Shown here piece after piece: positions 3,006-64,000 of a stretch of DNA of 64,000 nucleotides. Each line of letters opens with the position of its first letter. Positions within the stretch are counted from its first letter, which is position 1. Made by a program: the position numbers and the translations under genes. The DNA is taken from contig WFMF01000015.1 of NCBI GenBank assembly GCA_011033025.1, positions 372,001-436,000 on the forward strand, read 5' to 3'. Under the pieces are notes generated by a model. That model was not told where the DNA came from. It was given only the letters and a program-made list of their open reading frames with translations, and searched no databases. This DNA is from Beroe forskalii. Its lineage: Eukaryota; Ctenophora; Nuda; Beroida; Beroidae.

Positions 3006-3977
3006 ACGGGCCCGCTAGTTGATAATATTTTAGATGGCATTTTGAGTTGTGCATCATGGTGCAGTTGGTATGTACAGTACACTTGACTGGTGATGGACGT
3101 AGTTACGACTGAATACTGAATAGTTAAAAATTTTGAATAGTATGACATTTGACTTACGACCATTTAATGTCTTCTGCTTCTACTGGTGCATTGACAAAGA
3201 AGTCAATTTATATACTTTATCGGTACATATTTTCACAGATAATTGTGCCGAAAAAATAAAGGGCTCATTTTAATCATCAATAAACTAATAAAGTTACTTA
3301 CAGAAGCAAAGTAGCCTGTACTCCTGCAGTTGAAGTCAAGAAATGTAGATATACTGCAGACTTAAAATAATTCATATTCTATACCTACCTGAAATATAAA
3401 TTGTTAATCATAATTATAATCTCACACACTGTTGGGGCAGTAGTTCATTTACTGGATCTGTGAACTGCCCACATGGAATAAATTTCATTCAATTGCAGTG
3501 TTTGCAAACAAGGTGCTACAAATAAATTTGTATTGTATGAGGAGGCACCTGGGAGTGCTAGTATTTAGTAATATATAAACAATTACATCAAAAATACATA
3601 ACATATGATATGAAGACACTTGATTTTGATTTATTCACTATGATTACATGATAAGAAAGCTCCACATAATCGCATATATATGCTTATTGCTCATTTGATT
3701 AACATATGAATAATAATACAACAATTTGGACTTGAATAAAGTTTTACATTAATTGAAAATAATTATATACAGTATAAAAAATGTTAGAAATAATTTCTAA
3801 AAGACTTACACAATTTGAAAAAAGTTTCTATTTACTTATTTACAAAAATATTATACCTAAAAATCAAATATTATAGAGGTACATATAACAAATAAGTGTG
3901 AAGTAACATGATTTACGCCACAAGTGATGCAAGTTGCATGAATCGCATTATTCACAAAAAACTCAAAATAACACGTT

Positions 3978-3983
3978 TTTATT
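3978..3983 (-). terminator. AATAAA polyadenylation signal of the F-box gene
   Basis: Reading the minus strand, AATAAA occurs about 135 bases past the stop codon of the F-box gene, a usual 3' UTR distance. Confidence 0.4.
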
Positions 3984-4115
3984 CAACCTGTAAAACCCCA
4001 ACACATGGTTAATAATAATGAGAAACAAAACATAGAAATGGTCAATTGTTGCAGAAGAATAGAAAAAAAGAAAAAAAAGTCAGAACCAATGATCTAGAAT
4101 TGAATAATTTGGCAA

Positions 4116-4907
4116 TCATTCACAAAATAGCGATTCTAGACCAAAGTTTGTGCTAGGATCTTCCTCCTCATGATCTGATGTTAAATAGGATCTTTTTCTA
4201 ATAAATCTGCTCAATGGAATGACTGGGTCAATTTTTGTAGAATCTTGATGAGGGTCAAATAATGTTTTGAGACAAGCTGAATGATACATAAGGTGGCCAT
4301 GATTATTCAAATAACAAAATGCTTGACAACGGTTATTCAGTCCATGGCAGAGTAAACACTCAAGAAAAACATGGTTTCTTGCATGATTAATAACATTTAC
4401 ATCATGAGTGTACATGGCATTTGCTTCACGATCAATTTCATATTGCTTGGTAGATTCATAGGCTTTACAAGTTGCTGGAGAAAGACTGAACAAATTGAAA
4501 ATAGTATAGTGTGATCTTCTAGGTTGACAAATCATGAGGCTCCAATACAAATGTGGTATGTTATCTCTGAGCTTAACATAAGTGAGGAGAACTCTAGAGC
4601 CACGCCTTTTATTAGTATCTTCAATGTACTTCCAGTACTTGGTTAATATCTTCAAATGGAATATAAGATACTCATTTGCAAATAAATAACTATGATTCAC
4701 TTCATCATCTGAATAAAGGTTATGTTGATTTTCAGCTACCTTATAAGCATAATCAGTATAACAATATTTTTGCCAGAGATTTTTAGATGATGTGATTAAG
4801 TTGAAAAATCTTTTGCAAGTAAAGCTGAACTGAAGGGCAAGGTATCCATTGAAATGTATGCAAATTTTCTCAACGATTTCATCAGGAAGATGACAAATAG
4901 TACACAT
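4116..4907 (-). CDS. F-box protein, single exon
   Basis: 263 residues from an ATG at 4907. The F-box lies at the very N-terminus (about residues 6-50): the run LPDEIVEKICIHF is followed by FTCKRFFNLI and LWQKYC, the classic leucine-proline start and tryptophan of the Skp1-binding helix bundle. The predicted role is substrate receptor of an SCF ubiquitin ligase (family knowledge). The rest matches no substrate domain I know. Residues about 183-215 are rich in Cys and His (CLLCHGL, CQAFCYL, YHSACL), suggesting a small metal-binding module. There is no intron, unlike most neighbours, so a retrocopy origin is possible, but the frame is intact. An AATAAA lies 135 bases downstream. F-box identity is fairly sure; the subfamily is unknown. 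Confidence 0.75.
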   Translation of the reverse strand: MCTICHLPDEIVEKICIHFNGYLALQFSFTCKRFFNLITSSKNLWQKYCYTDYAYKVAENQHNLYSDDEVNHSYLFANEYLIFHLKILTKYWKYIEDTNKRRGSRVLLTYVKLRDNIPHLYWSLMICQPRRSHYTIFNLFSLSPATCKAYESTKQYEIDREANAMYTHDVNVINHARNHVFLECLLCHGLNNRCQAFCYLNNHGHLMYHSACLKTLFDPHQDSTKIDPVIPLSRFIRKRSYLTSDHEEEDPSTNFGLESLFCE

Positions 4908-5545
4908 AGTTGTCCTTCAAATTGGATGTACCTATATTTCTTGTGACCATATTGTACTGTGAATAAAACAAAACTGATCAATGATTTCAAATTTCAATGA
5001 TTCATTGAGTAAAACACAATGCCGCTTTTAGATGCATCATTGATGGTATGGGGGGATTCATAAACATAAACTCATACAGGTACTATCCATAAAGGATGTC
5101 CACAAAGCAGGGGAGTTAATAAGACAATACATATTTCTAAAATTTTGGTGAATTTATTGGTTATTTCACAATTTTGTGGATCCAATGTTAAAATCCTGAA
5201 TTATTGACAATGTTTTACCACATACTATATACCAAAATTACTGAACTTTGCAAGTCCTTGATGGGAGGCCCTTGATGGGAGGCCCTATCAACAGATTTTA
5301 GATTTGGCTAGGTCTAGGTGCCTTCCCTCAGCACATCCCAGATGCCTCATAATATAACCCAGAGAAAAATATATGTGCCAAGTTTTGTGCTGTAAAAATT
5401 TATGATTGAATTTAATTGAATTGAAGAAGACCAGATAAACATATCAACAGGTGAACCCTCTTTAAGTGAACTAATTATGTCACTTTCTACTGTGTCTAAC
5501 AGGTTTGATAAGCAGGACTTATGGTGAACAAAACCATGTTTATAA
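4908..5545. other. Intergenic; solo terminal-repeat-like motif
   Basis: No gene seen. A short copy of the end sequence of the next element ('ctatccataaaggatgtcc', near 5086-5104) occurs here alone. Just after it, near 5262-5285, the words 'cttgatgggaggccc' are repeated twice in tandem. Confidence 0.5.
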
Positions 5546-7931
5546 GGGGCCATCCATAAAGGACATCCACAATATTTTGGCCATTTCAGACCACTCCCTC
5601 CCCACTTGTCCACAAACGTCCGCAATCGAGAAACCCCTCCCTCCCCCTGGACGTCCACATGTTTCTTGATTGAAAACCCATGAGGGGCACCACTAAGGGC
5701 TTCAAAAAGAAAATAAATATAAATCGGATTCAAGATAAGATCCCTTTGTAAGGCACAGCACACCAATTGAGATTCAAAAAATGGTTAAAATTAAACGAAG
5801 AGAAGTAGATAGAGTCCAATTGATCGTGAGGACTACCAAGTCCTGTGTACTCACAACGAGAAACTAAAAACACATGAAACTAAAACAACCACATTAAGAA
5901 TCAAAATATCACCATACGCGAGTCTCATACTGATACCACATAAAACATTAACCACTATGTAGCACTCTTTGGGACGCTACAAACTTTTCCGTTTCTGATG
6001 TAGTGTCGTCTGTCCTTTTCTTCCTCTGATAACCGTTTAACCTCCTCACCAGCTCCCTCCGATGTTCCCTTTCCTCGGACCTCGGGTGACCTGTCAGGGT
6101 TGATGTACACTTTCTTGTATCTCTCCAAGAACGAAAGCTTCCTCGAAAGCCAGGATCTGTTCCACAACTGTTGAGGATGATGTAGAGACGTTTATAGGTC
6201 TTGCAGCTCAACCGCTCGGCTTCTTGAAAATTTTATGGGTCATCATTTTTTCCCTCTCCAATTGCGTTTTTGTTTTACAAAAAGGCAAATGAGTGGGTTA
6301 GCAGAGATCGTGGTTTGGAGGATTTTGGGAGAATTTGTGTATACTACCTTTATCAGTACTGTTAATTCTGAAAAGTGCCTGGGTGGGGGAGAAATCTCCA
6401 CAAATGGGGGAGAAATCTCCACAAATGGGGGCGAAATTTCCACAAATGGTGGAGAAATTTCCATATTAAATGGTGTAAGATATCATGCAACTGCTCCTTT
6501 ATAATATCAGTCAAGTCGGGGTATTTTGGAGTTTTTTTTGGTGTAGTGGCATCGAGTGAAACTGTACACTGTAGTTAGCTGACAGGAATTTGGGTTCAAT
6601 GCTCAGGCCATTCTAACGTTGAAATTGATTCTTTTTAAAACCCTGCTAGATCGATTTCATCAAATCTTTTCACTATAAAATAATGAATTTAAAATATTTT
6701 TTTCACAGTTTCCATTGGAGTTTGAAACATTTAGTCTTTTCTCAGCTTGAGCATCTTGATCTAACTGACAATGAATTAATGATTTGAGTCTTGGGTGCGA
6801 CAATGGATCATGATGATTGGTCCAAGGAATTGAGTAGAAGTTATCCCCGTAGTCTTAGTCTTAGTAAAACGGCCGCAGTCAGTTTAATCAACCAGGCTGG
6901 CAGCCATGCTGAGCATGGGGACTATCCCCAGTACGCTAGGCTAAGGGTGTGCACTCCTGGGTGGTTTTTCAGGCCACCCGACTGCCAGGGATATCCTGGG
7001 CTGAGAGTAGCCTACCCGTCCAGGACCTCACTGGACCAGCAAGCTACCAACACCCGGTGGCTTCAAACAAACTGCAAGTCAGTGCTTGCCTGCAGATTAA
7101 GTTGGAGATCAGCCGGAGGTGGCTATGTACCACCTACTTTCGTCTGACTGAGCCACAGGGAGGTCTGACCCAACCAGACTATATATATTCCCATTGATTG
7201 GAGTTATGCTGGGATCAATGGGCAAAGCCCAGCTATGGGGTACTACCTGGAAAAGAAGAGAGGGAACTGATTGTTAGTATTGGTGATATCTTTGGTGATG
7301 TTTTTGGTGTTGTATTATTGTTCATTGATCTTGGCAATGTTGCTAAATTTGATTTATTAGGATGGGACATCCTTTCGAAATTAGTTGCAGTTTATAGTAT
7401 TTATTTCTATGGGTCTAGATGTAAAGAAATTTGTTGCCTGACGGAAGTGGTGAGGTAATGGGTAATATGGGAGAATTGGACAGTGGGCTAAGTTTTAAAG
7501 CAGTAAGAGGGTTGATAATGCAGGGGTTGCCAATGTAACTACTGCTTCCAGAATGAGACAAAAATTATTCAATGATGGTGCTGAGGAACCTTGGAGGGTG
7601 ATTGCGCGCATGTGAAGATTTTGCCACATGCATCCGGACCGATCATTCGCCCATGTCCATGCGCACACTAAATCAAGCACATAGGAGAGGGAAATTAAGC
7701 GCCTGCATACAGGAACAACGGAAAACAAGAAAAGCACCAGCGGGCACAATTCTTGTTGCCCTCGAATTTAATGATTTTTTAGTGAAAAAGCTGCCCAAAA
7801 TTTCCATGAATCGTGACACCCGCATTTGGCCAAACATCCCCCTCCCCTCTTTGTCTGCAAATGTCCACAATAGCACAATGGCCAGACTCCCCCCTCCCCC
7901 CTCATTGTGGATGTCCTTTATGGATGGCCCC
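5546..7931. mobile_element. Non-autonomous DNA transposon with GGGGCCATCCATAAAGGA ends
   Basis: The left end (from 5546) reads GGGGCCATCCATAAAGGAC; the right end, read on the opposite strand from 7931, gives the same sequence for about 27 bases. Both ends are flanked by TAA (5543-5545 and 7932-7934), the expected short target duplication. No transposase frame is visible inside, so the element would have needed a helper. It carries a 21-bp minisatellite (6381-6470) and a GC-rich stretch (about 6790-7260) unlike its AT-rich surroundings. Superfamily not assigned. Confidence 0.65.
6381..6470. repeat. 21-bp minisatellite
   Basis: Four to five tandem copies of a unit resembling tgggggagaaatctccacaaa, drifting toward aaatttcc in the last copies. 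Each unit contains the small palindrome GGAGAAATCTCC. The open frames across it on both strands are by-products of the period being a multiple of three. Confidence 0.8.
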
Positions 7932-9488: not shown

Positions 9489-11160
9489 AAGACGCGACCG
9501 CGACGCGCGCAAGACTACAGTTTAAAACACGGCGCCTGGTTAGAAGAAGGCGCGTGGTGCATGGTGGCCTGCTGCACTACTGGTATTTGGCCCCTGCGCG
9601 CTCTGAAAAATACCCAATTCGCTAAACGTACCCAATTCGCTAGACGTACTTCTGACTTTCATACTTCTTTCTCAGTCCTTATTTTTAATTTCCCATGAGC
9701 AAATTAAGACTGAGGAAGAAGTACATTTGATTTGAATGAAAAATATTCATTGGGTTCATCTTTGCCTGTCGATACCAGACCCACTGATGCATTTGCTTTG
9801 AAGGGTCTATCATTGCATCAATAGACAAGGTTTATAATTATATTTGCAATCTACCTGTGCAGAATTTTAAGGCGCCTGTAATGTTCGTCAGTCGATCGAA
9901 TGGAAATGGTGGATCGATCAACTTCATTTGACCGACTGATGTGTTTTGAAAAGAAAATCTTTGAGCTTGTAGGGTAGGGTGCACCAAAAAAATTAAATTT
10001 TTGGTGCTCAACCCCTGAGCGATAGATCTCGGTGAGACAAGACCGAGGATATCCGGTTTTTTGAAATTGGACCCCGGGAACCCCTGGAGCGTTGACGATT
10101 TGTATCGGCCATACTTGTATGGAAGGCGCGGTATGGCGTGACCATCCACGGATTCTACGCGCGCGCTTATATCCGCGCGCGCAAGATTCTGCTGCAGTTC
10201 CGCGAGATATAGATCTAGATAGAAGTATTAGGTGTACTTGACCTATATTTGCTAGATCAAAGTAGGGTGTACTTGACCGTTATATCAAGGAATTTTCAAA
10301 TATAGTTTACAACAAAGACCGTGTTTATTATTGAAATATCACACACTAGCTCCGAATGTTGAACTTAATGAGGTTGAAGTGGTGATGATGCTGAGCATTT
10401 GATAAATTGATCGACATAGTATGGGCTGTTGGGGTGGGATGAAGCAAATGACAGGATCAGTATGATATGCTGCTGTGCATGTAGAACGACAGGGGACAAT
10501 CCTGCTCACTAGGGGACAATGTACATTGTACTCCCGTGTGTAGTGTCGGTGTGTAACTGTGTAGGTCGGATGTAATCAGAAAATTTATAGGTTTATCGCA
10601 AGCACACATAACATATAAATAACACCCAAAGGAAGCATCATCAATGCTCAACTTCGTCTTACCCGCAGAAGTTTGAAGACGGGTGAACTTGAAGGCGCGG
10701 GTTGAGGCTGAGCTGTCCCGGAACCTCAGCTCAACTGCGAGGGGGAGCAGCAGCTGCAGGGGATGATGTTGATGGTCAGTACGTCATCGGAGGTGAAGGG
10801 CCGGCAGTTATGAGAGGTGATGGGGGAGGAACCTCGAGGTAATCATAGGCATAACTTCAGTGCTCGTTACTGACAGGACGAAATGTGATCTGAGAGCTTA
10901 TTCAGGCTTAGAACTTCAGGTATGTCAGCGGCACTAACAGGGTTCGGATATCCTACATGATATGGAACAGATCACATGACCCATGATTGGGTCATTCGTG
11001 TGAATCGACTCGTGATACAGTATGAATCGAATAATATTGCGTATTTCGTCCATGTTGTGCTGAAATTTAATTTTCTTAACACTCTTTTAATTTTCTTTCG
11101 CTCAGTACTCAGGTAATAAACCTCGCGCTGAACTAATCGTAAGAGAACTACCGATTTGCG

Positions 11161-12790
11161 TTGCTTTCACTCACGCTTTATCCATCTACCCATACACTGA
11201 TCACGCTACATCCATCTACCCATACACTCACGCTACACTCGTCTACCCATACACTCACGCTACACTCATCTACCCATACACTCACGCTACACTCATCTAC
11301 CCATACACTCACGCTACACTCATCTACCCATACACTCGCGCTAAACTCATCTACCCATACACTCACGCTACACTCATCTACCCATACACTCATGCTACAT
11401 CCATACACTCAGGCTACACTCATCTACCCATACACTCACGCTACACTCATCTACTCATACACTCAGGCTACACTCATCTACCCATACACTCATGCTACAC
11501 TCACCTATCCATACACTCACGCTACACTCATCTACCCATACACTTGCACGCTACACTCATCTACCCATACACTCACGCTACACTCATCTACCCATACACT
11601 CACGCTACACTCATCTACCCATACACTCACGCTACATTTATCTACCCATACACTCACGCTACATCCATCTACCCATACACTGATCACGCTACATCCATCT
11701 TCCCATACACTCACGCTACACTCATCTACCCATACACTGATCACGCTGCATCCGTCCACCCATACACTCACGCTACATACATCTACCCATACACTCACGC
11801 TACATCCATCTACCCATACACTCACGCTACACTCATCTACCCATACACTCACGCTACATCCATCTACCCATGCACTCACGCTACATCCATCTACCCATAC
11901 ACTCACGCTACATCCATCTACCCATACACTCACGCTACACTCATGTACCCATACACACACGCTTCATCCATCTACCCATACACTCACGCTACACTCATCT
12001 ACCCATACACTCACGCTACACTCATCTACCCATACACTCACGCTACATCCATCTACCCATAAACTCACGCTACATCTATCTACCCATACACTCACGCTAC
12101 ACTCATCTACCCATACACTCACGCTACATCCATCTACCCATACACTCCCGCTACATCCATCTACCCATACACTCACGCTACATCCATCTACCCATACACT
12201 CACGCTACATCCTTCTACCCATACACTCACGCTACACTCATCTACCCATACACTCACGCTACATCCATCTACCCATACACACACGCTTCATCCATCTACC
12301 CATACACTCACGCTACACTCATCTACCCATACACTCACGCTAAACTCATCTACCCATACACTCACGCTTCATCCATCTACCCATACACTCACGCTACATC
12401 CATCTACCCATACACTCACGCTTCATCCATCTACCCATACACTCACGCTACACTCATCTACCCATACACTCACGCTACACTCATCTACCCATACACTCAC
12501 GCTACACTCATCTACCCATACACTCACGCTACACTCATCTACCCATACATTCACGCTGCATCCGTCTACCCATACACTCACGCTACACTCATCTACCCAT
12601 AAACTCACGCTTCATCCATCTACATTACCCATACATTGACGCTACACTCATCTACCCATACACTGATCACGCCACACTCATAACCCACACACTCACGCTA
12701 CATACTCATCTACCCATACTCACACTTCATCCATCTACGCTACCTCATCTACCCATACACTCCGCTACACTCATCTACCCATACCTCAGT
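11161..12790. repeat. 27-bp satellite, left array
   Basis: About 60 tandem copies of a unit like ctcacgctacactcatctac plus ccataca. Variants alternate between 'acactcat' and 'acatccat'. Because 27 is a multiple of three, every frame stays open on both strands and yields a 492-residue THTLTLHSS repeat. I regard this as non-coding. Confidence 0.9.
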
Positions 12791-13149
12791 CCCCACTGTT
12801 TGTACTCAAATCCGTTTAGGTAAATTTTCGCAGCGTGACCCCAGGGGACTCCTGCAATGAAATTCGCTCAAATCGGTATTGCTAAGACTTAGTTGCTAAG
12901 CCCATTATCATCATAACTGAGCGAAAATTATATCAGTTGGATGGACTTGCTCAATATACCTTATCCAATGACGGGGTGACACCGTTTGCGAGACTCTCGA
13001 AATCCATTAAGAGTCTAACAGAGCCTGCTGAGCTTACATATATACTTCTATAGAAATAGCATTGCAATTGGGTCACACTTAAGCAATAGTCGATTCACAC
13101 TACTTGATTAATCTATAACCGATTAAATCTGTATCGATCTGCAACATTC

Positions 13150-13325
13150 ATCATATATTTAAATTTGAATCATCTGTTTCCCAGAATGGGGACAATCTCC
13201 GAGGATGGGGGGACACTGAGTGAGCCGAGAGCGTGAGAGTTCTCACGCTCTCTCGACCTCCCTCAGTAATTGTCCCCACCTTTGTCCCTCATTCTGGGAA
13301 TTCAAATTTAAAATATATGATTTCA
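13150..13325. repeat. Central hairpin of the fold-back element
   Basis: 'atatatttaaatttgaat' and 'cccagaatggggacaat' on the left are mirrored by 'attgtccccacc', 'cattctggga' and 'attcaaatttaaaatatat' on the right, with GAGAGCGTGAGA/TCTCACGCTCTC at the apex. This is the symmetry centre, near 13235. Outer core matches (ccaatgacgggg at 12966; its complement near 13442) continue the symmetry outward. Confidence 0.75.
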
Positions 13326-13589
13326 AGCATGAGATTTAATGTTGAGATTACTCGTAATGAGCTATCATAGATTAATTTCAATAAAGTATAGATAATATCA
13401 ATAGAGCTATCAGTATCAGTCACCAGTCAGTTGCACTCACCCCCGTCATTGGAATTCATAGCTAAATGTTGCGTCCTTTTGTGCTTTAGACACTGAAATG
13501 GGCTTTTCAAGAGTCTAAAGCGCTGGTATTCAAATTCTATCCCAGCAGTATATTTTTAAACCGTCATTTTACCGTCCTTTGAGCGAATT

Positions 13590-14330
13590 ATTGCGGGAGT
13601 AATATGGTTGTATGGGTAGATGAGTATAGCGTGAGTGTATACGTGTATGGGTACTGGTAGATGAGTGTAGCATGAGTGTATGGGTAGATGAGTGTAGCGT
13701 GAGTGTATGGGTAGATGGATGTAGCATGAATGTATGGGTAGATGAGTGTAGCGTGAGTGTATGGGTAGATGAGTGTAGCATGAGTGTATGGGTAGATGAG
13801 TGTTGCGTGAGTGTATGGGTAGATGGATGTAGCATGAGTGTATGGGTAGATGAGTGTAGCGAGTGTATGGGTGATGAGGTGTGATCAGTGTAAGGGTAGT
13901 GTATGGGCATGAGTGTATGGGTAGATGGATGTAGCATGAGTGTATGGGTAGTGTAGCATGAGTGTATGGGTAGATGAGTGTAGCGTGAGTGTATGGGTCG
14001 ATGAGTGTAGCGTGAGTGTATATGGGTAGATGGATGTAGCGTGAGTGTATGGGTAGATAGTGAGTGTATGGGTAGATGAGTGTAGCATGAGTTTATGGGT
14101 AGATGAGTGTTTAGTGAGTGTATGGGTAGATGGATGTAGCGAGTGTATGGGTAAATGAGTTTAGCGTGAGTGTATGGGTAGATGGATGTAGCGTGAGTGT
14201 ATGGGTAGATGATGTGGCGTGAGTGTATGGGTAGATGGATGTATGTGAGTGTATGGGTGCAGCGTGATCAGTGTATGGGTAGATGAGTGTAGCGTGAGTG
14301 TATGGGAAGATGGATGTAGCGTGAGTGCTG
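13590..14330. repeat. 27-bp satellite, right array (inverted)
   Basis: About 27 copies of the reverse complement of the left-array unit (tgagtgtatgggtagatgag followed by tgtagcg). More indels than the left array, and less than half its length. Confidence 0.9.
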
Positions 14331-15655
14331 CAAATCGGTAGTTCTCTTACGATTAGTTCAGCGAGGTTTATTACCTGAGTACTGAGAAAGAAAATTAAAA
14401 GGGTGTTGAAAATTAAATTTCAGCACAACATGGACGAAATACGCAATATTATTCGATTCATACTGTATCGAGTCGATTCACACGAATGACCCAATCATGG
14501 GTCATATGATCTGTTCCATATCATGTAGGATATCCGAACCCTGTTAGTGCCATGACATACCTGAAGTTCTAAGCCTGAATAAGCTCTCACATCACATTTC
14601 ATCCTGTCAGTAACGAGCACTGAACTTATGCCTATGGTTACCTCGAGGTTCCTCCCCCATCACCTCCCGTAACTGCCTGCCCTTCACCTCCGATGACGTA
14701 CTGACCATCAACATCATCCCCTGCAGCTGCTGCTCCCCCTCGCAGTTGAGCTGAGCTTCCGGGACAGCTCAGCCTCAACCCGCGCCTTCACCCGTCTTCA
14801 AACTTCTGCGGGTAAGACGAAGTTGAGCATTGATGATGCTTCCTTCCACTAGTTCAGGAAGAACCAGAACGGAACAGTTCAGTGCTCTTCCGCTGTTTGA
14901 AGAAGAAGAAGTGATGTACATCCTCCTTCACCCTGACAGCAAACCTGGAGCGAATCATTCGCAGTAACCTGACTCACAAGAATCATTAATTTTGAGTGTT
15001 ATTTATGTTATGTGTGCTTGCGATAAATCTATAAATTTTCTGGTTACATCCGACCTACGGCTACACAAGTCTAACAGTTACACACCGACACTACACACGG
15101 GAGTACAATGTACATTGTCCCCTAGTGAGCAGGATTGTCCCCTGTCGTTCTACATGCACAGCAGCATATCATACTGGTCCTGTCATTTGCTTCATCCCAC
15201 CCCAATAGCCCATACTATGTCGATCAGTTTATCAAATGCTCAGCATCATCACCACTTCACCCTCATTAACATTCGGTCATTCGGAGCTAGTGTGTGATAT
15301 TTCAATAAACACGGCCTTCCGCCTTTGTTGTAAACTATATTTGAAAATTCCTTGAAATAACGGTCAAGTACATTCTACTTTGATCTAGCAAATATCGGTC
15401 AAATACACCCTACTTCGATCTTTATCTCGCGGAACTGCAGCAAAATCTTGCGCGCGCGGATATAAGCGCGCGCGTAGAATCCGCGGATGGTCACGCCATA
15501 CGGCGCCTTCCATACAAGTATGGCCGATACAAATCGTCAACGCTCCAGGGGTTCCCGGGGTCCAATTTCAAAAAACCGGATATCCTTGGTCTTGTCTCAC
15601 CGAGATCTATCGCTCAGGGGTTGAGCACCAAAAATTTAATTTTTTTGGTGCACCC

Positions 15656-16862
15656 TATTATAAAGGTATTTCTTTATCATGTCGTATTTTATGATAGACT
15701 CGCACTTTGTAAAAGCGTACGCATTAATTTTAAAGTGTTTATCATGACAAAAGCATGATAAGCTTATCCCTTTCGCCTTCCATTTATACACTTTATTGAT
15801 TAATTATCACAGTTTTTGCGAACCTCTACCAGCACTTATGCTCCTATGACCCCGAATTACCCAAAAAGGTGTGATCGTGGCCCATCGGCTCGCTGACATC
15901 TGTGTATTACGAATGAACTGTATATTATGAACAAACAGTAAAAATCAACATACCTTTATATTGCTTCATTGAGAAGCAGTGTCTCTGAAGTGAGTACAAG
16001 GTGGTTTCAGGGGAGGTTGCTTCCTCAGCAAGAGGACCAGAACGACTTCATCTAGAATCTGACAGCATTGGTTTCAGACGGAAAATCCTTACATTCAGCC
16101 ATTGCATTGCTAAAGTATTGGTGGATTATTAATGAATTGTTAATAAGTTAATGATAACAATAACGAGAAAAATTATTTTAATCAAAAACAATATTATAGA
16201 TAGTGATAATGTTCATTTCAAAGATTCGAGCCCCAAAATCAATCAAATAGAGCATTAAAAATCAATGAATCGAGATTGCTGATGAGTAATAAATATAATG
16301 AATACAGATCATCATAAACATTTCAAAGGATTACATTGAGTAAAATCATTAGGTCTGTGAATAATAAACAATAAATTTCAATAGTAATAGCAATTAAATC
16401 AGTGAAATCAAAACTCTGCGCCTAAATAGTAAATACAATTCAAATCAAATAATAAATAACTATTCATCAGCCAGATAGATTGTACAGTATAAGAATATTG
16501 AATAAAGTAATAAATGAAATGTTCATTGATTTTTGAATGAACGATTTTTGTCCTAATTCTGAGTTATAAGCGAGCCATGCACGCCCGATTCTATTCCGGC
16601 CTACGGCCAAAAGGCAAAACCGCCAAAAGTTATCAAATTTGAAGGCGATCTCGAGGGCAGTAGCAAATACTCAACTATAGGACGTAAGCCGGTGTGAAAT
16701 CGGCCGTATCCTGAAGTTCAACTTCGAATCATGAATCATAACAGCAGGGAAAGTTCAGCAAATATTAATTAAGCAATAGCATCTCAGAAAATTTGAGATC
16801 TGAACAATTGGGGAAATGGGGGCGCCAAACTCTACAGCTGCACCGCGTGGATGGGATGTGGA
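15656..16862. other. Gene-free AT-rich stretch
   Basis: No recognisable exon or repeat. It covers the sequence beyond the annexin stop codon, so part may be its 3' UTR. Confidence 0.5.
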
Positions 16863-19800: not shown

Positions 19801-22800
19801 AATTGCAAGCTCTGTCTCAAGGGCCGAACTCATTTCATCTCGACCACCCTGGGAGGATTGGGAAATCTTACTATCTTAGTATCTAACTATCTTAGTATCT
19901 AACTATCTAAGTAGCTTAATGACAAAGTACAGGTAAGTGCTTAATTGTATACTTTTATAGGGTGGGTCATAAAATCATAAATCTCTGAGCCCCCAACATA
20001 TGTACCTAACTGGCAACTGCCCAGATGTCAAGAAGAATGATATTACCTGAATAAGAGCCGCCACGAAACGTTGGAACTCCCCCAGGAGATTCATTGCTAA
20101 AACATCGCCTAAACTCCTGCTTTCATCTGCAATTATCAGACATCCAATTACACAACTTAAAGTCTTCAATATACAAATTTTGACGGATGAGAGTTATAAA
20201 ATTACAATATAAAGCACGAAGACTGCTAGTTCATTTAATGAACTAGCAGTCAAATAATCAAATACTCAAATAAGATAATGAGCTCAAAACAAATGCTTCA
20301 TTAAACGTTTTACATACTGGTAAGACCGGTGAAAGCTAGATTGATCTCATTTATTTGCTGTGGTGTTGAACATAGCAATACCATGATAATCAGGTCCACT
20401 GTCGTGTTGTCATTATCCTGGAGAGAACATAATTCAAACCATTCTAATATAGTATATACAATATACATATATACATCGGTAATTTTAATAAGTTAACAGA
20501 TCAGCTTAACTACTGTAACATCTCAGTTAGAAGTTCTGCCATTAGTTCAGCAAAGGGACTGAAATATATGTGGACACCTGTATTGTTTTATCAAGGAGGA
20601 TAGCAGAAGCTTTGGCGTAACCAACTAGAATATACTGGGCCGCTGAGAACGCATCCCAAGTCATTTTCTCTTTCAAGCTACGCAGCAAATCCTGATCAAA
20701 GCAACAATTGACAGTAAATTCCGATCGAATAACTAAAAGGATCTCCACTAGACATTATTCAAGTTCAATTTAAAGCGAACAGTAAATATTAGGCAGTGAT
20801 ATTAATCTCAATAACAATTAATTCGTAATAATATAATACCGGTTTGTAGACACCCGACATGACAAACCTCTTGGTAAAGCTCCGAATAAGACTTCATGAC
20901 ATCCTTGTCATGAGATCTGGCTATGGCTACCAGCACATTGCAAACCTCTTCCATCTGAAATGCGTCCTCTGCAAGCAACCGACGCAGAGTCTGCATTGCA
21001 TCTGCGAGACAAAGAGTAGTGATTAGGGAGTGGTGGTGAGGGAGTAGTGATTAGGGAGTAATGATTAGGGAGTAGTGGTGAGGGAATAGTGATTAGGGAG
21101 TAGTGATTAGGGAATAGTGATTAGGGAGTAGTGATTAGGGAGTAACACTGCAAGGTACACGTCCACATTAGCTCTTTCTGGGTTCCAACTCAGCTAGTAA
21201 GTTCTAGATGCCATACCAAATGCAAAAAAACTAATAAGACACTAATAAAAACTAATATGTTGCTACATATGAAAAGAAAAAAGCAGTCTCTAGTCATAGA
21301 TCATCTAGATTGGGTCCAAAATAAATTTCATGGTCCAAATTTCCATGTCAGCCCGTAAAATTGGGATTTTTAAGAGGTTATGATATTGAAATTGGCCACG
21401 AGTCAAAATTTTGAATGCAGCATTTTCTTATTTGGATTACACTAAACTGGCACACAAAGCTTCTTTTCTACTTTTCTAAGTTTCAAGTGAAATAATCCAG
21501 ACGGCTACATCAGTACACTAATTACACCCCTGTCAGAATTCAGAAAATTATCTTCCATACTAAGATACTAGCTTATTTTGGATTTTAAAGGAAAACAAAG
21601 GAAAACTGGCGAATATCATTGGTTCAGTGGTTTCAGGCGAATAATTTATGACCAGGTACACTTCTATTTGACCACCCATGAGACATCTACGCCCAATAAA
21701 GAAAAGGAAGTTTTCAAGCCCAAAAACGCGATTTTAACCCCCATAACAGACAGAAAATGGCTGATTTCGGGATTCTGAAGTATGGTATGTTTTTCTTAGG
21801 GCGTCCATGGATGGCGTGCAAATTTTCAGCTCAATCGGCCAAAGTTTTTCGATTTTGGATCTTGGGTGCCTCAGAAATGAAGAACGTCCTGGATCACTGT
21901 TTCAAGGGTACAAATAGGGTTTTTTGGATTTTACAGGAAAACAAAGGAAAACTGGCAAATATCATTGGCTCAGTGGTTTCAGGCGCATAATTTATGACCA
22001 GATACACTTCTATTTGACCACCCATGAGACATCTACGCTAAATAAGGGGCGAAAAAAGGCAGTTTTTAAGCCCAAAAACGCGATTTTAACCCCCCATAAC
22101 AGACAGAAAATGGCTGATTTCGGGATTCTGAAGTATGGTATGTCTTTCTTAGGTCGTCCATGGATAGCGTGCAAATTTTCAGCTCAATGGGCCAAAGCTT
22201 TTCAATTTCGGATCTTGGGTGCCTCAGAAATGATTAATGAAGACACTCATTCCATTTGGCTTCACTTTTTCCCTAACTTAGGATTCTTGGCAGTATTTTT
22301 CAAGCATTTTCATCCCTCGCAATCTTATTCTTAGTATGAGCGATTTCATTTTGGTAACTTTCAAGACTTTACATTTGGGAGCATCCTATTTTCTGCATAT
22401 GGGTTAATCTTTTTGAAACTTAGAACACCTTATTTGATAAGTTTGCTTGGCTTTTTCATTTCATACGGGTTTAGAGTAGGACAATTCAAGTTTTTTTTGG
22501 TCTGACATTACGAGATATACGGAGTATAATATGTGATTAAACTGTAAATATTATTTCTATTTCTATTTCTATTTCTATTTCTATTTCTATTTCTATTTCT
22601 ATTTCTATTTCTATTTCTATTTCTATTTCTATTTCTATTTCTATTTCTATTTCTATTTCTATTTCTATTTCTATTTCTATTTCTATTTCTATTTCTATTT
22701 CATGGATCACTGTTTTGAGAGGTAAAAATTGGGTTTTGGATTTTACAGGAAAACAAAGGAAAACTGGCGAATATCATTGGTTCAGTGGTTTCAGGCGAAT

Positions 22801-25800
22801 AATTTATGACCAGATACACTTCTATTTGACCACCCATGAGACATCTACGCCCAATAAGGGGCGAGAAAAGGCAGTTTTTAAGCCCAAAAACGCGATTCTA
22901 ACCCCCCATAACAGACAGAAAATGGCTGATTTCGGGATTCTGAAGTATGGTATGTCTTTCTCAGGTCGTCCATGGATGGCGTGCAAATTTTCAGCTCAAT
23001 CGGCCAAAGCTTTTCGATTTCGGATCTTGGGTGCCTCAGAAATGAAGACACGCATGGATCACTGTTTTGAGAGGTAAAAATAGGGTATTTTAGTACTAGA
23101 TAACAGACTATTAAACTAATAGAAATGATTGAAATCAAGCCAAAATAAAGCAGGTGACCAGGCGATACCTCTAACTGACGGGGATACATGGACTTCTTCA
23201 ATGGAGTCTGCAAATGTTCCTTCTTCGTCAACAGATTGAGGAATCGTCAAGTCGGTAGTTGTGTTGTTCATTTCGTAGATATCATTCACTTGCTTTATGT
23301 CAATAAGTCCAGGGATATCATTAGATTGGCTGTAATCCTTCATCATAGCCCTTATTTCAGGGTGATCAGGTAGGCTTTGAATATCACAAGCTCTCTGGAG
23401 GTCAGCTGTTCTTAGTTCTTCTCGTTGGTGTTCATAAATAGTATCTTTTGCTTCGGAGAAGTCATCATTTTCATGGTAAATGATCTTTGCATCCATGAAA
23501 CTTCCTGAAAACCATGATGAAGCAATAAAGTCATATTTTATGAAGCTTTCGTCTATTTTAAAAACTAATCTTCAATGACAGTAAATTCAAAATTTAAAAA
23601 AATTGTGAGCAGACTGAGACAACAGCAGAATATAGTATAGTATATCATACCATGCTTTGATAAAGGAGCGTGCTTTAAAGGGGAAATATCGTTTGAATTG
23701 GACTCTTTTTCATCCACCTGTGATAAGTTTCTTTGAAATTCCAATATAACTTTACAAGGTTAATTTTTGTAGTATAAGGCAAATACTCAAATAGAATTTT
23801 CACGTTTTTCACGACTGATACCAATGATTGGAGTTCATTGTCGAAATAATTTGAGAGAGAGATTAACCTGGCTTGGAACAGTGTGATCCAGGAGCTTGAT
23901 GTGCGAGTATAAAGACTGGAGTTTCGACCAAAAGCTTTCTGATGACAGTGACTCATATTCAACGGCAATGTCACCCAGATCAACCTAAGGGGTTACAACT
24001 AATTATTTGGACATATTTAATGCGCTGCTAATTTGAAATTTTTAATACCATTAGGGTAATTATTTTTCATGAGTAAGAAATAAAGATGCACAGCTTTTAA
24101 AATCGAAAAAATCGGCTTTTGAGTTTCATGGCTGATTTTCGATTTTCTGACCACTTGCAATTGATTTTTTGGCTAATTTTACTACAGCGTACATGCACAT
24201 CGAATCAGCTAATCAGACTCCACAACACTTCCTGAGACCTGAATTCTTGTATCCTAAAAACCCCTTGTATCCTAAAAACCCTTTTCTGCAACTTAGTAAA
24301 TTTGTCAATTTTTCAATCGTTGGCATTTTAGCAGGATAGACTGTCGACTTGGAAAAGGGACCATCAACCGTGAAGTGACTGGTAACCGACCAGTACCTGA
24401 TCGTCGACCGATTACCAAATTAGCAAGTCGAATAAAATTTACGACTTTTATCCTAAGACTCGTGATCTTTCTGTCCTGATGATCACCATAACGCTATTTA
24501 CCCAAACCAAAATCCAGCAGCAGCCCTTGGTGAAACATTAAATGTCATGTGGTCATGCACCAAATGGGAACCCTCTCACAAATCTAAACTTAAAATGAAT
24601 TTTTTGAGCCCACTTTTTTCATACACCAATTTCGCACTTTCGCTTATAGTCGAATCAGAGTGTACAAAATGACAATTAAAATTCAACAGATTGCAGATAA
24701 TTTTATTGATTTCTAATCACATTTCACATTTTCTTCAATATACTCAATGTTATTTTTCAAAATAATTGAACTTAAGAGTGGGAAAAAAGTCAATGATCTT
24801 GTCCTACAATCTACAGATTCCACTCAGTACACTTTGCACGGAAGTTGATTATCCCATAGCCACTGGCTTCAATCAGCTCCATCCCTGTTATAACATAGCC
24901 CTTAGGACAGGAGTACGCCTTGTTCCAGGAACCATTTCCATTGCCACTGGAGCGGGTACCACTTGTAGCACCTGTGCACTTCATCTCTACATCCACTATG
25001 CCATACCAAGGCTGCTCTCTTCCTCTTACCACCTGGAAGCCGTAGTTGTCTGTTGACTTGCATGTTCTCTTTGGGTTTCTAGATCCTTCAGTGTTGCGAG
25101 TGAAAGGAATTTCGTCTCCGTATCCACAGTCCATGTAGAGCTCCACCAGTCCGTAACCACCTTGTTCTTTCCACTGCAGACCTTGGACTGCGTAGTTCCG
25201 AGGACACTCCTCTTTCAGTGTGGTGCCATCATGGTTTCCATTAGACCAGGAAGTCCAGAGAGATTTACGTTCTATCACGGGGGGAGTAGCAGGAATCTCA
25301 GACTGAACTAGTTCAGAACACCGAGGTCTGAAGTTTATTATCCCATATCCGTATGACTCAATTACTTCAAGTCCTGTTATGACTGACTTACTAGGACAGT
25401 GACTGGGTGAGTTCCTGAAACCATTGAAGTTAGTACCGGATGTAATCCAGGCTGAACTGCCAGTGTCAAAGCAGAGCATTTCCACATTGATGATACCATA
25501 CCCATGATCTTCCCGTCCCTCCAAGGCACTGAACCCGTTGAATTTTCCTGTGTCTTTACACTCTGTTTTATTGTTAGTGAAGCCCTCCTGGTTCCCAGTA
25601 AAATCTATCTTTGTCCCACCACAGTCCATCTCAACTTCGATGAGCCCGTACGAATGCTGCTCCGTCCACTGCAAGGCCTCCACCGCTTGGTTCAGTGGAC
25701 AGATGTGCTCTATGGTGTGACCCTGATGATTACTGTTTGACCAGCTCCCAGGATTTACCTCACTCAGCAACCTGCTGACTGCATTTTTCGTAGAAAGTGT

Positions 25801-62956: not shown

Positions 62957-64000
62957 CGGGCATAGATCCGTTTGCCACTTTGTCCAGGCGCCAGTCTAAT
63001 GCAGGTCTTGCGCCGGTTTAATGCAGGTCTAACGCCAGTCTAGTGCAGGTCTAATGCAGGTTTGGCGCCAGTTTTGTGCAGGTTTAGCGCCGGTTTAGCG
63101 CGGGGCCAGCGCCAGTCTAATGCAGGTCTTGTGCCACTCTAGTGCAGGTCTAGCGCCGGTTTGGTGCAGGTCCAGCGCCGGTTGAGCGCGGGTACAGTGC
63201 TGGTGCAATGCAGGTCTAGCGCCGGTTTAATGCAGGTCTTGTGCCAGTCTAGTGCCACTCTAATGCAGGTCTAGCGCCGGTTTGGTGCAGGTCCAGCGCT
63301 GGTTTAGCGCGGGTGCAGCGCTGGTCCAATGCACCTCGGATGCTATCTCAATATCACTTATGCATTTTATACAGATTTGGCGCCGATTAAATTATGCAGG
63401 TTTGACGTCGTTTCATGCATGTTTGGCGCTGTTTTAATGCAGGTGCAATGCCATTCCAATGAAGGTTAGTTACCATCGTTAGCCATGGTAACGTCCGTTA
63501 GGGACCACCGGTAACCATGGTAACGTACGTTAGCTACCATCGGTAACCATGGTAACTCACGATTGTTACCATGTCGGTAACCATGGTAATGTACGTAAGT
63601 TACCATCGGTAACCATGGTAACGTATGTTAGTTACCACCGGTAACAATGATGAAGTACGTTAGTTACCACCGGTAACCATTATTTATTATTATTATGAAG
63701 AGTCATGGGGCATAGAATTGAACATGCCAAACCTGCATGAAACCAGCGCCAAACCCGCATTGGAATGGCGTTGCACCTGCATTAAAACAGCGCCAAACAT
63801 TCATGAAAAGACGTCAAACCTGCATAATTTAATCGGCGCCAAATCTGTATGAAATGCATAAGTAATATTGAGATAGCATCCGAGGTGCATTGGACCAGCG
63901 CTGCACCCGCGCTAAACCGGCGCTGGACCTGCACCAAACCGGCGCTAGACCTGCATTAGAGTGGCACTAGACTGGCACAAGACCTGCATTAAACCGGCGC
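62957..64000. mobile_element. Second fold-back satellite element (cut by window end)
   Basis: The left arm, about 62980-63460, is a degenerate 18-22-base satellite (aatgcaggtctagcgccggt type). From about 63720 the same sequence returns inverted: cctcggatgctatctcaata (near 63335) matches the reverse complement near 63870, and gcgccggtttaatgcagg (63219) matches the last bases of the window. The symmetry centre is near 63610. The design repeats that of 9977-15655, with unrelated sequence. The outer end of the right arm is outside the window. Confidence 0.8.
63460..63690. repeat. Central array of palindromic GTAACCATGGTAAC units
   Basis: Six or seven units of about 31-35 bases, each with ttaccatcggtaaccatgg and taacgtacgtta. 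The 14-base palindrome GTAACCATGGTAAC is perfect at 63511-63524, 63543-63556 and 63609-63622, with near-copies at about 63477, 63577, 63645 and 63672. It fits the strict RFX1 X-box consensus GTNRCC-(0-3)-RGYAAC. Confidence 0.8.

Follow-up and report, generated by a model that had tools for sequence, protein, structure and literature searches.

The window analysed here is a 64,000-nucleotide stretch of the genome of the ctenophore Beroe forskalii (contig WFMF01000015.1, C192:372001-436000; the host assembly, GCA_011033025.1, has 216,145,372 bases in 1,134 contigs). A fold-back element of 5,683 bp, which begins TAGGGTGCACC and ends GGTGCACCCTA, occupies window positions 9975-15657 and looks like a moderately repeated, apparently geneless fold-back transposon, of a family that seems new and a kind already known. 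The left outer arm (9975-10630, forward strand) starts with the terminal motif TAGGGTGCACC, and its first 33 bases are self-complementary. It is followed by the left inner arm (10629-11160, forward) and an array of a 27-bp satellite with the unit CACTCACGCTACACTCATCTACCCATA (11168-12788, forward, right end approximate). The core (12789-13608, no strand assigned), which is 78-82% conserved in the longer blocks aligned with other copies, includes an imperfect palindrome at about 13150-13321 (70% over 194 columns). Beyond it, and all on the reverse strand, lie the satellite array in opposite orientation (about 13609-14327), the right inner arm (14332-14845), a segment that the window copy carries in its right arm only (14846-14990), and the right outer arm (14991-15657), which ends GGTGCACCCTA. 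The left arm of several other copies (L035, L036 and L037 among them) aligns unbroken through most of the right-only segment, to about window position 14945.

Each arm is about 1.2-1.3 kb long. The outer arms (9975-10630 and 14991-15657) pair at 91.3% over 680 columns, the inner arms (10629-11159 and 14332-14845) at 95.1% over about 530 columns, and ungapped arm blocks of 238-248 nucleotides at 97%. With the satellite excluded, the longest exact inverted match is 103 bases, versus 10-16 bases in 20 two-base-block shuffles. A perfect 12-bp stem in the core (13227-13238/13241-13252) was read by eye; the palindrome scan, limited to loops of 0-1 base, did not report it. Complementary termini, arms of more than 1.1 kb, the 27-bp satellite in opposite orientation and a palindromic core, all named in an original prediction made from the sequence of this region, are present, the palindrome being imperfect. 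That prediction also held that all 5.7 kb can fold into one hairpin. The arrays are unequal (about 1.6 kb with 57 anchor matches on the left, 0.7 kb with 27 on the right), which in a hairpin of the full length would leave some 0.9 kb of the left-hand one unpaired. The ends had been placed at 9977 and 15655; each lies two bases farther outward, since TA is part of the terminus.

The first 246 bases, used as a query, gave 40 scored matches among 80 candidates, at 97-100% identity. Among 30 loci that were cut out, the left boundary is visible in 16, with TA preceding GGGTGCACC in 15 and other letters in L008; the remaining 14 matched in reverse and have inner sequence at the boundary position. 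The exact 15-mer terminus TAGGGTGCACCAAAA occurs 58 times genome-wide (27 + 31; reversed control, 0). Two-ended copies number 14, namely 13 +/- pairs of exact termini within 12 kb and L033, whose left end is without TA. We fetched 20 regions, which represent 19 loci since two are halves of one; 12 loci have both ends and 7 have one complete end. The dissected set comprises these 12 and the window copy, leaving out the fourteenth two-ended copy (C580:961108-968001) and the one-ended loci. The 13 dissected copies are 3,084-10,590 bp long and have the core in common; its orientation relative to the arms varies between alignments, which is uninformative because the arms are near-symmetric. The prediction of a repeated non-autonomous fold-back family had been staked on other copies with coinciding termini; further genomic copies do end exactly at these termini, in unrelated flanks, and look non-autonomous. 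A diverged subfamily is represented by L053 (C761:13760-17760), whose outer arm is 79-82% alike over about 270 bases. Its interior differs, with a 10-bp repeat and two short frames that have no Pfam match, and neither a long frame nor a second end was found in the 4 kb read.

When the TA is counted as part of the element, a perfect 9-bp target duplication flanks 8 of the 13 dissected copies, and a perfect 8-bp duplication flanks two (L032, L044). Three copies (L035, L036, L031) are inserted in tandem repeats, and when their flanks are joined, the alignment to neighbouring units runs across the junction. These units represent the empty site, with a single target copy and no TA insert; flank-to-unit identity is about 80-85%, and some units have small indels near the junction. 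Discrete termini with target duplications, together with long inverted arms whose internal tandem repeats vary between copies (13/13), are features of the fold-back group.

No long frame belonging to the element itself was found, in a listing that hid frames with satellite-like translations. Besides these and a DUF4371 transposon, the longest frames of at least 100 amino acids lie mostly in arms or simple repeats. Three frames were scanned against Pfam: one is the DUF4371 frame, that of L034 has no match, and that of L042 has a weak zf-RVT match below the cut-off. In the 10.6-kb copy L38_39, the DUF4371 frame was considered as a transposase of the element itself, and was rejected; the insert is a transposon nested in the satellite, with ends CAGGGGTGCCGAAGCC/GGCTTCGGCACCGCTG and an 8-bp duplication CATACACT, which we take to be a hAT element. 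Nested insertions account for part of the extra length of copies. In L033 (C580:970000-979900), element bases about 3638-5927 are a nested insertion in the satellite and belong to a different fold-back family, the third encountered here; the insert has the ends GGCTATATACTGGGTGAAC, and its 8-bp duplication TGAGTGTA was read by eye. L031 contains a GC-rich inverted array. Allowing up to 1 mismatch, the genome has 175 ends of the third family, GGCTATATACTGGGTGAACTG (control, 0). A paired copy of this third family at C489:83422-89881 encloses a PF10551 match (C489:84214-84345, E 2.3e-5), and is possibly a coding member.

A search with the 23-base end of the window family, allowing up to 3 mismatches, gave 66 genome matches (control, 1). 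A similar terminus, TAGGGTGTACC, bounds 3.35-kb elements on both sides; their terminal inverted repeats (TIRs) measure about 316-321 bp and their duplications 8 bp. One of these elements, L051, is decayed, and the other, L052 (3,351 bp, with a TIR of about 316 bp), has a 770-amino-acid frame called P0001; a second, near-identical frame of this length is at C2:682488. P0001 has 31 matching places in the genome, including two frames of full length on C2, decayed frames on C468 and C580, and relatives at about 31-34% identity; two of the 31, on C215, are no more than 10 kb from an exact end of the fold-back but outside that element. The motifs HWDGK, FDTTS, CRHH, ARWM and NDS-ER are kept wherever relatives were read. 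In the C279 relative (L054 with L056 and L058), the TIR is about 248 bp at 98.8%, with outer bases ..GGGTGTGCAAGC (by eye). The P0001 protein matched neither Pfam nor PDB, a two-sequence profile also matched nothing in PDB, a literature search with its motifs found no match, and four pattern matches in viral contigs were not confirmed. A DxxH or CxxH motif after the second D is common to hAT, Kolobok, P and MuDR transposases (PMC3706591). P0001 has DDE- and CxxH-like motifs, and so it looks, from its sequence, like a DDE transposase of this wider set. P0001 points to a transposase-like protein group that has no Pfam model. This group is a candidate mobiliser of the fold-back family, a link for which we consider the chances to be even.

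A family with 14 two-ended copies makes it possible to test directly how fold-back elements maintain the likeness of their kilobase-long arms. Conversion from one arm to the other leaves private substitutions that both arms of a copy share; a single mutation affects one arm, and a private base present in both would imply copying between arms unless it was made by assembly. We took sites with a minority base in exactly two arm sequences, counted how often both were the arms of one copy, and compared the counts with label shuffles. A copy was excluded from a test if it lacked the block in both arms, leaving 11 of the 13 for the inner arm, 12 for the outer 225 bases and 10 for the middle block. 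In the inner arm, 13 of 21 two-sequence substitutions are in both arms of one copy, where 1.0 is expected (0 of 20,000 shuffles), and 7 copies contribute. The outer 225 bases have 5 of 6 within one copy (0.26 expected; 6 of 20,000 shuffles) and the middle block 10 of 13 (0.69 expected; 61 of 20,000 shuffles), the latter contributed by two copies only. Arm identity is 96.6% within versus 95.6% between copies for the inner arm and 98.6 versus 98.0 for the outer 240 bases. These patterns point to conversion between both arms of one copy as what keeps the arms alike. The arrays do not exhibit the same pattern: none of 22 satellite monomer variants present in exactly two arrays is confined to the two arms of one copy, which is a weak test with 0.88 expected, and the similarity of array spectra is 0.57 within versus 0.59 between copies. 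The term "gene conversion" is absent from the main-text passages of the Galileo (PMC4168063) and Tm1 (PMC3169594) papers drawn on here, and we claim no priority.

All 13 dissected copies carry the 27-bp unit in both orientations, in numbers that are unequal between arms (15-70 forward and 5-82 reverse anchor matches per copy). A 58-base stretch of two satellite units has 119 exact matches in the assembly; among the 100 listed, 99 are within 6.9 kb of a family terminus, the exception being C358:279191. No free satellite array was recognised in the assembly by exact 58-base matches, a search in which diverged units were not sought and collapse is possible. The proposal that the element acts as a satellite nursery is therefore unsupported in this assembly, and satellite inside fold-back arms need not turn into genomic satellite.

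The window element is very probably one copy of a fold-back DNA transposon that is non-autonomous and moves by cut-and-paste in trans, with conversion maintaining the likeness of its arms. For the transposon, the sequences show copies that share exact ends in unrelated flanks, as well as target duplications and empty sites; for conversion, the evidence is statistical. A DDE transposase supplied in trans would recognise the TAGGGTGCACC ends, and its staggered cut would yield the 9-bp, sometimes 8-bp, target duplication. This transposase may belong to the P0001 group; the element known from that group resembles the family in its end but has an 8-bp duplication. Conversion between arms probably proceeds via a hairpin or cruciform, or via template switching in gap repair, and the 27-bp arrays may change length in each arm separately, by slippage or unequal exchange. 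A more specific proposal is that an undescribed DDE-like transposase group (P0001; ends [TA]GGGTGYRC; distinct from hAT, Mutator-like (MULE) and P; 8- or 9-bp duplications) mobilises the family, that hairpin conversion maintains 1.2-kb near-perfect inverted arms, and that the arrays escape conversion; we regard this as rather unlikely.

Several observations weigh against these interpretations. Among the 58 exact ends, 32 are unpaired, the right end of L033 included, and 7 fetched loci hold one complete end only. An intact duplication is absent from three of the 13 dissected copies (the window copy, L033 and L042). The flanks of the window copy agree at 5 of 8 positions, with a chance of about 0.03 for one length tried, and its duplication has possibly decayed. 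An earlier conversion test on 640 outer bases (23 of 64, 3.4 expected) is not significant, with 551 of 10,000 shuffles reaching the count, because a 24-column block common to L035-left and L044-right dominates; the likeness of arms may also partly be an artefact of assembly or polishing. As to the mobiliser, P0001 elements have 8-bp duplications (2/2) versus mostly 9 bp in the fold-back family, no DNA similarity between the P0001 element and the fold-back extends beyond about 22 terminal bases, and a P0001-group match is absent from all 13 dissected copies.

The flanks had been read in the original prediction as TA target sites, and TA does adjoin GGGTGCACC in most copies, as for a TA-target transposon of Tc1/mariner or similar type. 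However, the TA belongs to the terminus TAGGGTGCACC, the duplications sit outside it rather than consisting of 2-bp TA, and the empty sites of L035, L036 and L031 are without that TA and keep one 9-mer, which contradicts such an origin and makes it extremely improbable. A palindromic segmental duplication of satellite by breakage and fusion, with no transposon, would suit the palindromic layout, the satellite content and a window copy without an intact target duplication, but it is contradicted by copies that share their ends and differ in their flanks, by the duplications of 10/13 copies and by the empty sites, and we find it hardly credible. The conversion part of the transposon interpretation has its own competitor, in which one arm's reads polished the other during assembly. 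Inverted repeats are hard to assemble, and 32 of the 58 exact ends are unpaired, but array lengths and monomer variants differ between arms of one copy, the arms are non-identical (inner arms 92.1-98.0% within copies), and L032 and L035 each carry private indels in both arms; an artefact of this kind is an improbable explanation of arm likeness.

A MULE transposase, a type shown for Tm1 and suggested for Tetris, might be the mobiliser instead, and the resemblance to P0001 ends would then be convergent. MULE duplications are typically 8-11 bp (PMC6446971), which covers both the 9 bp of 8/13 copies and the 8 bp of 2/13, and fold-back elements are mostly assigned to Mutator (PMC4079207). The genome has 46 PF10551 matches, one of them the match inside the paired copy at C489:83422-89881. 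None of the 46, however, lies 10 kb or less from an exact TAGGGTGCACCAAAA end, although a distant partner is possible, and the 23-base terminus search reached P0001-type ends and no recognised MULE-bearing element. A MULE mobiliser is plausible, if on balance doubtful.

hAT elements have the end consensus YARNG, which TAGGG fits, and P0001 has CRHH and ARW, yet no Pfam hAT match; a hAT duplication is 8 bp, as in both P0001 elements, whereas among the 10 copies whose duplication is intact, 8 have 9 bp. The Foldback element FB of Drosophila melanogaster has inverted arms with internal short tandem repeats and a 9-bp duplication, as here, but its sequence and repeat unit differ from those of the window family. 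The original prediction had likened the element to the Foldback/Galileo type, which holds for the architecture but not for the size of the Galileo duplication. Galileo, of the P superfamily (PMC4168063), is alike in its very long TIRs, occasional internal tandem repeats and nested transposons, and differs in its 7-8 bp duplications with the consensus GTATTAC and its P-type transposase, to which P0001 has no match. Tetris of Drosophila virilis has long composite TIRs with internal tandem repeats, 8-10 bp duplications and no conserved frame, and no autonomous partner of it was found in the genome (PMC4079207). Compared by description only, it differs in that its repeats of about 220 bp have spread into satellite arrays, whereas here the repeat is 27 bp and no free satellite was seen in the assembly. 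Tm1 of root-knot nematodes (PMC3169594) likewise has composite TIRs, short tandem repeats of variable number, mostly 9-bp duplications and nested insertions. Unlike the window family, whose array is about 1.2 kb inside and in whose copies no MULE was found, Tm1 has 13-15 bp repeats near its ends, asymmetric terminal motifs and, in some members, a Phantom-type MULE transposase. Rehavkus (PMC6446971) has a 9-bp duplication, a TIR and a minisatellite near one TIR, and differs in that the minisatellite is on one side only and the transposase has a PHD finger; P0001, a candidate mobiliser only, has no Pfam match.

A second, unrelated fold-back (L057) lies at window positions 62958-64000 and continues to C192:436261. 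It is 1.3 kb long and 84.7% self-complementary, with ends GGGCATAGATCCGTTTGCCA, an 8-bp duplication CTTACACC (by eye) and inverted 11/22-bp GC-rich arrays, and genome-wide there are 264 matches to its 20-base end when up to 1 mismatch is allowed (control, 0). A tandem repeat of about 353 bp (21576-22233 and 22700-23091) surrounds a perfect (TATTTC)25 run at 22552-22701, and by eye is also the sequence into which the fold-back copy L035 is inserted. A frame at 24814-25812 matches VOMI (vitelline membrane outer layer protein I; E 1.4e-7), and an NPC1-like protein is among the genes nearby.

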